Origin: an uncultured Sulfitobacter sp.
Lineage (GTDB): Bacteria > Pseudomonadota > Alphaproteobacteria > Rhodobacterales > Rhodobacteraceae
NCBI GenBank assembly: GCA_937138475.1
Contig: CAKZPD010000004.1
Location: 1 to 64,000, forward strand
Reading direction: 5' to 3'
Length of the DNA stretch: 64,000 nucleotides
Part shown: positions 20,741 to 24,117 of the stretch, in pieces
How positions within the stretch are numbered: the stretch's first letter is position 1
How the letters are laid out: each line of letters begins with the position of its first letter
Program-made: the position numbers and the translations under genes
The notes under the pieces: generated by a model
The model's database searches: none
Told to the model about the DNA's origin: nothing
The model's input: only the letters and a program-made list of their open reading frames with translations

Positions 20741-21064
20741 ATGCAATTGCCCCCAAAAGTGACCCCGCGCGCCTTTGCACGCCTGGCCGAGATCGGGGCC
20801 AACCTTGATGGCAAGGCCCTGCGCGTCGCCGTCGAGGGCGGTGGCTGTTCTGGATTTCAATATGAGATCGCCCTCGACATCCCCAAAAACGACGATCTGA
20901 TCCTGGAAGGGGGCGGCGAAAAAGTCGTGGTCGATGCGGTGTCCCTGCCGTTTCTGGCCGGCGCCGTTATTGATTTCTCAGAAGAGCTGATCGGCGCGCG
21001 GTTTGTGATCGACAACCCCAATGCCACCAGCGCCTGCGGCTGTGGCACGTCGTTTTCCATCTGA
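20741..21064 (+). CDS. erpA: A-type iron-sulfur carrier protein
   Basis: A 107-residue HesB/IscA-type carrier that passes iron-sulfur clusters to target proteins. The three ligand cysteines are present: Cys36 in GGGCSGFQY and Cys99 and Cys101 in SACGCGTSFS. I call it ErpA-like because this stand-alone gene beside dgt is usually so annotated; IscA or SufA cannot be excluded because no isc or suf genes are nearby. The last 87 bp overlap the 3' end of the minus-strand gene that ends at 20978, an unusually long convergent overlap. Confidence 0.9.
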   Translation: MQLPPKVTPRAFARLAEIGANLDGKALRVAVEGGGCSGFQYEIALDIPKNDDLILEGGGEKVVVDAVSLPFLAGAVIDFSEELIGARFVIDNPNATSACGCGTSFSI

Positions 21065-22192
21065 CATCGGCATCGGTGCCGCACGGGCAAAGGCGCTGAA
21101 AAACCGATCAAAATCAGGGGCGGCGATTTCGGCCATGCCCAAGTGCCGGGCAGAATCGTGATCCAGCGCCGCAATGACGTGGCGGCGCATCCGTCGCCAA
21201 CTGGCGCTGCGTTTGCCCCCCATCTGATACAAACATTCTGACATCAACCGCATCGGGTTCAGGCGCGGCGCTGTGTCGTCGATGCGAAAGGCACCGCTGG
21301 GCAATTGCGGTGGCGCCACACCGGCCCCGGCAACATCGGCCCACCACAACCCCACCAGAAACGGATGATAGGCATCCCCCCCCATGGATGTCCCCGTGGA
21401 TGTCCCTGTAGGCGCCCCCGGCGATGTCCCCGGCACGGCGCGAAACATCCCCTGCCCGCGCGTCAGCCAGGCCTCCCACAGCGGGCTGGGCGTGCGCCCG
21501 CCAAATCGCAAGGCCAGACAGATTTCCGCCAACAGATCGAAATCACATTCCAAAAACGCCAGGGTTCCTGCAAATTCAAGGCTTTGCAACGCCTTATCCG
21601 GCAGATGCGCGGCCTGCGTTCCATACCGGGACAGATAAAACACGATATGTGTCAGCTCATAGGCGGCCTTTTTGTTGGGAATGGCAAACCCCTGCGGGCG
21701 CGCGATGAAATTCATCAACCGTGCGTGCAAGCCGGCATCGGGGGTCATGACCCCGCGCCGGGCCAACAGGTTTGCCGCCTCGGCCCGCTGCAAATCCGAC
21801 AGTTCGGCCTGCGCCAGCCCCTGGCCGTGTACCCAATGCGCCAGATGCGCGCCCTGATCGGTTCGGGATGTTTGCGCCCCCCCGCCACCACACAGGCCGG
21901 CAATGCCCAGATCCTCAAGATCCAGGCAGATGCTCAGGAAAAAGCGGTAATACTGCGGGAAAAACTGGGCCTTGTTGGGCAGATCGCGATAAAATTCCAA
22001 ATACGGCGCCAAGGCATCCGGTTTGGGCCGCGCCCCAAGCCGCGCCAGAATGCCAAGCACTTCGGCGTTTTCCTTCAGCCAATAAACATCACCAGCGGCC
22101 CGGCGCTGGCAGGCAAAGCTGCCAAGCAACCTTGCCTGCCAATCGGGCGCCGGTCTGGGCGCCTCTTGCCTGAATGGAACCACATTTGACAT
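20978..22192 (-). CDS. Unknown 404-residue partner of the repeat peptide
   Basis: I do not recognise an established function. The predicted protein is soluble, with no signal peptide or membrane span. Recognisable conserved-looking blocks are FPQYYRFFLSICLDLEDLG, PNKKAAYELTHIVFYLSRYG and LAFLECDFDLLAEICLALRF, suggesting an all-helical protein; the central GTSPGAPTGTSTGTSMGG is a low-complexity insertion encoded by short DNA repeats near 21384-21430. The ATG at 22192 has AAAGG about 9 nt upstream and lies 16 nt after the stop of the small peptide gene, so the two form an operon. The last 87 bp (29 codons including the stop) overlap erpA on the other strand. It could be a modifying, export or immunity factor for the peptide; this is inference from position only. 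Confidence 0.75.
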   Translation of the reverse strand: MSNVVPFRQEAPRPAPDWQARLLGSFACQRRAAGDVYWLKENAEVLGILARLGARPKPDALAPYLEFYRDLPNKAQFFPQYYRFFLSICLDLEDLGIAGLCGGGGAQTSRTDQGAHLAHWVHGQGLAQAELSDLQRAEAANLLARRGVMTPDAGLHARLMNFIARPQGFAIPNKKAAYELTHIVFYLSRYGTQAAHLPDKALQSLEFAGTLAFLECDFDLLAEICLALRFGGRTPSPLWEAWLTRGQGMFRAVPGTSPGAPTGTSTGTSMGGDAYHPFLVGLWWADVAGAGVAPPQLPSGAFRIDDTAPRLNPMRLMSECLYQMGGKRSASWRRMRRHVIAALDHDSARHLGMAEIAAPDFDRFFSAFARAAPMPMSDGKRRATAAGAGGIGVVDHKPRADQLF

Positions 22193-22208: not shown

Positions 22209-22415
22209 TCAGGCCGCTTGCTGCGCGCTCTGCGGCGCGGTCTGTGCGGCCATCGGATCGCAGCTGGTGGTAAACAGCCCGGTTCCACCGCCCATATGCC
22301 AATCGCCCGCCAAAGGCGTGCAGCTGGTGGTATAAAGATCGGTGCCGGCCCCCAAATGAAGGTCGCTGCGTGGCTCCCCCGAATTGGTGAGTTGCAGGTC
22401 TGTCGTTCTGTGCAT
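22209..22415 (-). CDS. 68-residue peptide with two TTSC repeats
   Basis: A short gene directly before the 404-residue partner. After a 17-residue lead it carries two 20-residue repeats (18-37 and 38-57) that match at 12 positions: D-x-H-x-G-x-G-T-x-L-(Y/F)-TTSC-x-P-x-A. The first 17 residues contain a weaker third copy of the start (DLQLTNSG). The tail is Ala/Gln-rich. Cys residues within Thr-Thr-Ser resemble the core of a ribosomally made, modified peptide, but no known modifying enzyme is next to it. AAGGA lies 8 nt before the chosen ATG; a GTG at 22523 in the same frame, with a stronger AAGGAGG site 7 nt upstream, would add 36 residues. A regulated structural or metal/signal peptide is also possible. 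Confidence 0.7.
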   Translation of the reverse strand: MHRTTDLQLTNSGEPRSDLHLGAGTDLYTTSCTPLAGDWHMGGGTGLFTTSCDPMAAQTAPQSAQQAA

Positions 22416-22515
22416 GGTGTTCATCCTTTTTACCGTCGCTCCCCCCTGAACAACCTTGCGCTTGCCGACGATTTCGCCAAGGGAAATCTTGTCATTAACA
22501 TTTATTAACAATGAG

Positions 22516-22524
22516 TTATCCACA
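22516..22524 (+). promoter_or_regulatory. Perfect DnaA box 1
   Basis: TTATCCACA, the consensus DnaA 9-mer, in the AT-rich 325-bp gap between the peptide gene and xthA. It overlaps the alternative GTG start of the peptide gene. The gap also holds TTAA at 22495 and 22505 and no other gene that I can support. Confidence 0.65.
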
Positions 22525-22574
22525 TAAACCCCTCCTTGTATCTGCCCCATTTTGATGCACGCCTTGCGGGAATT

Positions 22575-22582
22575 TTAACCAT
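22575..22582 (+). promoter_or_regulatory. CtrA-type half site
   Basis: TTAACCAT, the half site recognised by CtrA in Rhodobacterales and Caulobacter, lies between the two DnaA boxes. Sequence match only. Confidence 0.4.
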
Positions 22583-22591
22583 CAGGAAAAC

Positions 22592-22600
22592 TTATCCACA
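22592..22600 (+). promoter_or_regulatory. Perfect DnaA box 2
   Basis: A second TTATCCACA in the same orientation, 76 bp from the first, about seven helical turns. It lies 141 bp before the xthA start. Confidence 0.65.
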
Positions 22601-22740
22601 CCCCGCGCTTTGCCCCGGTTTCGGGTAAAAATCCCGGCAAACCCCGGCAAAACCCCCCGCTTGGGCGCGAATCACCCCCGCGCTCTCTTGCTCCGGGCCG
22701 CGCCATGGGCGATAGCTGGTTCAACAGGCAGGAGACCCGC

Positions 22741-23523
22741 ATGAAAATCGCCACCTTCAACATCAACGGCATCAAAGCACGGATCGGCGCCCTGACCGAT
22801 TGGCTGGACGAGGCCCAGCCCGATGTGGCGCTGCTGCAAGAAATCAAATCCATCGACGAAGCCTTCCCCCGCGCCCTGTTCGAAGACCGCGGCTATAACG
22901 TCGAAACACACGGGCAAAAGGGCTTTAACGGGGTCGCTATCTTGTCAAAACACCCGCTCGAGGACGTAACCCGCGGCCTGCCAGGCGATCCCGATGACAC
23001 CCAAGCCCGCTGGATCGAGGCCACAGTCATGGGCGCCCGGCAAGCTGTGCGCCTGTGCGGTCTCTACCTGCCCAATGGCAACCCGGCGCCGGGGCCGAAA
23101 TATGATTACAAGCTGGCGTGGATGACCCGTCTGGAACAGCGGGCCCGCAGTTTGCTGGCCGATGAAATCCCGTTTGTGATGGCGGGTGATTACAATATCA
23201 TCCCCCAAGCCGAAGACGCCGCCACCCCCGATGCCTGGACCGACGACGCACTGTTCCGCATCGAAAGCCGCACCGCCTTTCGCCGCCTGATCAACCTGGG
23301 GCTGACCGATGCCTTCCGCGCCGGCACCCAGGCGCCCGGCCACTACAGCTTTTGGGATTATCAGGCCGGGGCCTGGAACCGCAACAACGGCATCCGCATT
23401 GATCACCTCCTGCTCAGCCCGGCGGCCGCCGATATGTTGCAAAGCTGCACAATCGACAAAGACATCCGCGGGCGCGACAAACCATCGGACCATGTGCCGG
23501 TGTGGATCGACCTCGACTGCTAA
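22741..23523 (+). CDS. xthA: Exodeoxyribonuclease III
   Basis: ExoIII is the major AP endonuclease and 3'-repair exonuclease of base-excision repair. The protein has 260 residues of the endonuclease/exonuclease/phosphatase fold. Key motifs are MKIATFNINGIKARI, VALLQEIKS with the metal-binding Glu, LYLPNGNP, MAGDYNIIP with the catalytic Asp and Asn, and the C-terminal RIDHLLLS and SDHVPVWIDLD with the catalytic Asp-His pair. AGGAG precedes the ATG at 22741. It converges with the HNH gene, 6 bp apart, and an AlkA-like glycosylase, which would create its AP-site substrate, is at 25019-25642. Confidence 0.97.
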   Translation: MKIATFNINGIKARIGALTDWLDEAQPDVALLQEIKSIDEAFPRALFEDRGYNVETHGQKGFNGVAILSKHPLEDVTRGLPGDPDDTQARWIEATVMGARQAVRLCGLYLPNGNPAPGPKYDYKLAWMTRLEQRARSLLADEIPFVMAGDYNIIPQAEDAATPDAWTDDALFRIESRTAFRRLINLGLTDAFRAGTQAPGHYSFWDYQAGAWNRNNGIRIDHLLLSPAAADMLQSCTIDKDIRGRDKPSDHVPVWIDLDC

Positions 23524-23529
23524 GCCGCC

Positions 23530-24117
23530 TCAGGCCTGCAATTCGGCATCCCAATACAGAAAATCCATCCAGCTCTCATGCAGATGGCCCGGCGGGAACT
23601 TGCGGCCAATGTTGCGCAACTCTTCGGCGCCCGGCTGCCGCGGCGGCTTGCGCAGGCTCATCCCGGTGCGATGCAACGCCTTGGAGCCCTTGCGCAGATT
23701 ACACGGGCTACAGGCGGCCACGACATTTTGCCAACTGGTGACCCCTCCGCTGGCGCGCGGCACCACATGATCAAAGGTCAGCTCCCCCTTCGATCCACAA
23801 TACTGACAGCGAAATTCATCCCTCAAAAATAAATTAAAGCGCGTGAAGGCCACGCGCTTTTGAGGTTTTACATAATCTTTCAGCACCACCACCGACGGGA
23901 TCCTGATCTGGGTGCTGGGCGATCTGACAATATCGTCATATTCCGCCACAATATCCACCCGATCCAGCCAGGCCGCCTTGATCGCCTCCTGCCAGGGCCA
24001 TAACGACAGCGGATAATACGACAAAGGCCGATAATCAGCGTTCAACACCAAAGCCGGCCTATGCTTTAATGCGGCGGGTTTACGGGTAAATTCCGTTCGA
24101 AAGTCAGCGTCCATCAC
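23530..24117 (-). CDS. HNH endonuclease family protein
   Basis: A 195-residue protein with a standard HNH module: FRCQYCGSK (first CxxC), ELTFDHVVPRASGG with the catalytic His, then NVVAACSPCNLRKGS (Asn and second CxxC). The N-terminal part (RPALVLNADYRPLSYYPLSLWPWQEAI) is the conserved domain found in the widespread chromosomal HNH proteins of alphaproteobacteria that are not linked to mobile elements. The biological substrate is not known to me. The coding sequence includes a perfect hairpin followed by an AT-rich run at 23836-23860 (see findings). Confidence 0.9.
   Translation of the reverse strand: MMDADFRTEFTRKPAALKHRPALVLNADYRPLSYYPLSLWPWQEAIKAAWLDRVDIVAEYDDIVRSPSTQIRIPSVVVLKDYVKPQKRVAFTRFNLFLRDEFRCQYCGSKGELTFDHVVPRASGGVTSWQNVVAACSPCNLRKGSKALHRTGMSLRKPPRQPGAEELRNIGRKFPPGHLHESWMDFLYWDAELQA
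23836..23860 (-). other. Terminator-like hairpin inside the HNH coding sequence
   Basis: AAAGCGCGTG (23836-23845) and CACGCGCTTT (23851-23860) form a perfect 10-bp stem with a 5-nt loop. On the coding (minus) strand it is followed by AATTTATTTTTG, so it looks like an intrinsic terminator within codons for the segment KRVAFTRFNLFLR. Confidence 0.5.

Follow-up and report, generated by a model that had tools for sequence, protein, structure and literature searches.

Paired DnaA boxes in the upstream region of a putative RiPP-like peptide operon of Rhodobacteraceae

Genes flanking the gap

The window analysed in this study is a stretch of 64,000 nucleotides from an uncultured Sulfitobacter sp., and the intergenic gap of interest lies between a precursor-DUF6902 operon to its left, on the minus strand, and xthA to its right, on the plus strand. 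The precursor gene (22209..22415, −) encodes 68 aa with two core-like repeats, GTDLYTTSCTP and GTGLFTTSCDP. It is accompanied by a gene (20978..22192, −) for a DUF6902 protein, the presumed precursor-modifying enzyme, which matched the DUF6902 profile with an E value of 2.7e-118. The divergent neighbour xthA (22741..23523, +) encodes exodeoxyribonuclease III. It must be noted that the DUF6902 frame overlaps erpA (20741-21064, +) in antisense at its C-terminus (20978-21064), and in a few genomes the match is limited to this overlap. Additionally, an HNH endonuclease gene (23530-24117, −), weakly similar to the HNH regions of IscB and Cas9d, adjoins xthA.

In relatives, the precursors consisted of a short leader, in many cases M-[TSN]-A-x-x-K, followed by two to approximately 20 repeats ending in a genome-specific core (e.g., FSSGSAP, FTSWSGP, FTSCAAP); that of the window has only two repeats. 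The core motif (window 22209-22415; L133-L162) was uniform within a genome and different between genomes, as if by concerted evolution. Comparison of the precursors with Pfam gave no family above the cut-off. DUF6902 was nearly confined to Rhodobacteraceae in the class sample and was not found in the literature searched. The family is related to DUF6895 (profile match of the window protein, E 8.1e-23), which, to judge from the title of a paper of 2026, includes a lasso-peptide epimerase (doi 10.1021/acscatal.5c08590). A sequence search for solved relatives of DUF6902 yielded a single chance-level match. The structure model of the window protein was confident (pLDDT 84), and Foldseek returned no match to it at E 0.001 or better. 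The best VIA-align result was with class II terpene cyclases (Z 11.6, rmsd 4.0 over 222 residues); this similarity is no greater than is usual among common helical folds, and no function was read from it.

A leader with core repeats beside a gene for a modifying enzyme, a role presumed for DUF6902, is the arrangement expected of a RiPP operon. The locus resembles multi-core RiPP precursors and the lasso-peptide epimerase system of DUF6895 in having a leader and repeated cores next to a DUF6895-related enzyme, but it differs from known RiPP systems in that the operon has just two genes, no further RiPP enzymes in its vicinity and a precursor outside the Pfam families. The pair is probably a RiPP-like operon for a repetitive, modified peptide.

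DnaA, CtrA and GANTC sites in the gap

The gap is AT-rich for this genome, as the initial annotation had stated, the G+C content of positions 22480-22600 being 39% compared with 62% for the 64-kb window. Two copies of the DnaA box TTATCCACA were confirmed in the same orientation and 76 bp apart: the proximal one at 22516..22524 (+; TGTGGATAA on the precursor's strand), at −109 from the precursor ATG, and the distal one at 22592..22600 (+), at −185. They are the only exact boxes in the window, where 0.10 were expected and 2 of 100 shuffles reached two. The whole genome contains 16 exact boxes vs. 13 copies of the reversed 9-mer. The rarity formerly attributed to this 9-mer holds therefore for the window and not genome-wide: single boxes are at about chance level in the genome, and it is the close pair that stands out.

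The sequence TTAACCAT, which the initial annotation had taken as a CtrA half site, was indeed located between the boxes (22575..22582, +). By itself it is unremarkable, with 0.6 expected by chance in the window, and it was not kept in relatives, being found in just 2/62 genera. A possible link to CtrA lies in a different element, a full CtrA-type site that a subset of genera have close to the proximal box. In the window, this site (TTAA-N6-TTAAC, 22495..22509, +; 0.02 expected) lies 16 bp downstream of the start of the proximal box on the precursor strand. TTAA-N6-TTAA is the full CtrA motif of Caulobacter (PMC4287350); it was present in 11/62 genera and TTAA-N7-TTAA in 7/62, and other spacers occurred in 0-2. 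In seven of the genera that possess the proximal box, that of the window among them, TTAA-N6-TTAA began 16-27 bp downstream of the box start.

A further site, the extended GANTC (CcrM/GcrA) motif TGATTCG, was found at 22668..22674 (−), at −259 from the precursor ATG, its usual slot being approximately −240. Neither this motif nor TTAA-N6-TTAAC had been named in the initial annotation. Among the genera with a proximal box, 31/40 carried GANTC in [−252,−228], while other palindromic pentamers numbered 0-8; within 300 bp of xthA, GANTC was present in 49/49 DUF6902 genera vs. 15/61 others. The site near −240 has the form (T/C)GATTCG and so agrees with the extended motif YGAKTCG of GcrA/CcrM promoters. 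In Caulobacter, TGATTCG is the extended motif tied to GcrA activation, and Brevundimonas showed no extended motif (PMC7987155). As a separate observation, YGAKTCG was scarce in the window (positions 1-64000), with 7 copies vs. 38.8 expected, which fits counter-selection of GANTC sites.

Conservation of the boxes and their geometry

The upstream region of xthA was read in 110 genera of sampled Rhodobacteraceae, a box pair being defined as two or more boxes, each allowed one mismatch, at no more than 400 bp from xthA. Such pairs were kept in 35/48 genera bearing DUF6902 and in 0/61 genera without it (Fisher p 4.6e-18, uncorrected for phylogeny). Exact close pairs were located at 38 places in 395 genomes of the family, 27 of them at the xthA-DUF6902 locus (one of these, in G249, shows xthA only), and the reversed pattern gave two. 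Exact close pairs elsewhere, in other genera (L200, L201, L208, L210, L218, L219, L222, L226, and L227), had no rho, hemJ, or maf in the surrounding stretch examined, and there may be other DnaA-linked sites. In G141 (L221), a close relative of the HNH endonuclease gene was found next to a further exact box pair.

For the slot analysis, distances were measured from the start codon of the precursor in 62 genera; the automatic precursor finder missed 32 of the 80 named loci, and counts from that set are lower bounds. The proximal box occupied a slot with a median of −110 from the precursor ATG (IQR 109-112; 41 genera) and was on one strand. The distal slot, at approximately −186, was used in either orientation, and some genera had a middle box at approximately −164. 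In the genome of Ruegeria pomeroyi (L236), exact boxes stand at −185 and −109, with a GcrA-type motif at −238. A box started within [−116,−106] in 36/62 genera, and any other 11-bp window reached at most 1. An unbiased k-mer count over the 250 bp upstream of the precursor gave TGTGGATAA as the commonest 9-mer (36/62 genera vs. 0/61 controls; best shuffle, 4). A 9-mer beyond chance and a fixed position relative to the gene start, as expected of a DnaA-binding regulatory site, were thus both found. The proximal box was absent in 21/62 genera with a placed precursor, most of which had nothing close in the slot; therefore, control through it is not universal.

Same-strand spacings between boxes fell only into the classes 20-23, 52-54, 64-66, 74-77, and 86-89 bp, the class 74-77 being the commonest, with none between classes. 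They were collected from the sampled genera and from the 80 named loci, two sets that overlap. Pairs were present at 35 and 52 loci in the two sets, vs. 0-2 for shuffled motifs, although the loci are related by descent and the pair count is not a count of independent events. The classes of approximately 22, 53, 65, 76, and 88 bp correspond to helical turns, and such discrete classes are what binding by a protein to the same face of the helix predicts. The box-bearing control region is kept over many marine bacterial genera, and we consider that its sites are real, are very probably under selection and form part of the peptide operon.

These features bear on other explanations of the boxes. An origin of replication had not been claimed for the gap, correctly, given that the box cluster of the rho-hemJ/maf neighbourhood sits on another contig, C5, where mnmG-mnmE-rho-hemJ is followed by five boxes (up to one mismatch) within approximately 300 bp and then by maf-aroE. 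Escherichia coli datA and DARS are short clusters of DnaA boxes outside oriC, and the gap is like them in this respect. A datA- or DARS-like site for DnaA titration or reactivation, parked in a convenient gap, would account for clustered consensus boxes at the same site in many genera, and also for the location of the locus at 0.65-0.89 of the origin-to-terminus distance in six box-bearing genomes that are complete or nearly so (rho taken as origin marker; computed by hand). We nevertheless regard such a titration or replication-linked site, suggested initially, as unlikely: there are only two or three boxes, present only together with DUF6902 and at a rigid distance from the start codon, in a promoter geometry and a dependence on one gene family unlike those of datA and DARS. 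Additionally, the position of the locus follows the xthA neighbourhood, and it is in the terminus half of the chromosome, unlike an origin-proximal titration site.

Regulation of xthA had also been put forward; the peptide operon would then be adjacent by chance. The boxes lie between both genes, xthA is a gene of DNA metabolism (DNA repair) and it adjoins in 60/67 upstream stretches. This explanation is improbable, since none of the 61 xthA upstream regions without DUF6902 has a box pair and since the distance from the proximal box to the xthA ATG drifts (SD 37.8 bp) while that to the precursor ATG does not (SD 4.3 bp). Moreover, xthA has its own promoter-like CTTGC..CGATAG at approximately −57, independent of the boxes (strict pattern, 30/49 and 4/61).

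With respect to the binder, the variants TTGTCCACA, TTATCCCCA, and CTATCCACA, tolerated at the peptide promoter, are outside the simple E. coli consensus, as could be expected if a protein other than DnaA recognised the 9-mer. We give this little credit, given that the exact DnaA consensus is the most frequent form and that the DnaA of this genome carries the canonical box-recognition segment GRDHTTV; DnaA is the likely binder. Finally, the DUF6902 locus may plausibly have arisen once, and the tree of the sampled DUF6902 proteins is poorly resolved. It is nevertheless very hard to believe that the boxes have no regulatory role and simply descend from a single module inserted long ago, because the boxes, slots and helical spacing persist although DUF6902 proteins of relatives are only approximately 43-51% identical to that of the window and there is hardly any conservation between the boxes.

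A candidate cell-cycle promoter

The best reading, in which we have good though not complete confidence, is that the gap holds a DnaA-bound, cell-cycle-linked promoter of the RiPP-like operon. The DnaA-linked promoter for the peptide operon envisaged in the initial annotation is in agreement with pairs that occur only with DUF6902 and with fixed slots relative to the precursor ATG. The alignment downstream of the proximal box revealed a −35-like TTGAAA/TAGAAA at approximately +33, a weak −10-like stretch at approximately +57 and a conserved GtGcAAgCgT at approximately +64; the window's own core promoter is among the less conserved copies. From this we infer a promoter approximately 25-70 bp downstream of the proximal box, with transcription starting near −42 from the precursor ATG. 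A start there would place the centre of the proximal box approximately 60-65 bp upstream, a typical activator position, and DnaA would activate rather than repress.

According to this proposal, the gap would be the control region of the minus-strand precursor-DUF6902 operon. DnaA would be bound at the two boxes on one helical face, and its cooperative binding, or a small loop, would control transcription of the precursor and DUF6902. TGATTCG (CcrM methylation, GcrA), together with the full CtrA site in some genera, would link the promoter with the cell cycle; GcrA is encoded in the genome. Caulobacter cell-cycle promoters combine DnaA, GcrA, CcrM, and CtrA sites (PMC4287350), and the peptide locus is similar to mipZ P2 and podJ P2, where DnaA motifs lie approximately 50-85 bp upstream of the start together with GANTC, GcrA, and CtrA sites (PMC4287350). 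The extended GcrA/CcrM motif TGATTCG (YGAKTCK) is likewise common to both. In contrast, the Caulobacter targets are division and polarity genes, and here a repeat-peptide operon has consensus boxes, a strict helical spacing and an inferred start site. In addition, Caulobacter GcrA sites are near core promoters, whereas here TGATTCG is not inside the core promoter but approximately 200 bp from it (near −240 vs. a presumed start near −42).

Our literature search gave no paper joining DnaA boxes, Rhodobacter and precursor peptides. Judging from sequence comparison, we tentatively suggest, as a possibility somewhat short of an even chance, that Rhodobacteraceae possess a family of multi-core ribosomal peptides not described so far, and that the chromosome replication cycle gates their synthesis via DnaA and CcrM/GcrA, and in some genera CtrA, with the peptide being produced at a fixed point in every cell cycle. 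The genes that DnaA is known to control as a transcription factor are mainly those of replication, division, and polarity, and a rigid DnaA-box array before a repeat-peptide operon in dozens of genera would put the peptide product into the cell-cycle programme. With its natural helical phasing, the locus would in addition be a system for testing the control of transcription by DnaA, and the box array gives a first clue to the timing of synthesis of an unstudied peptide family.
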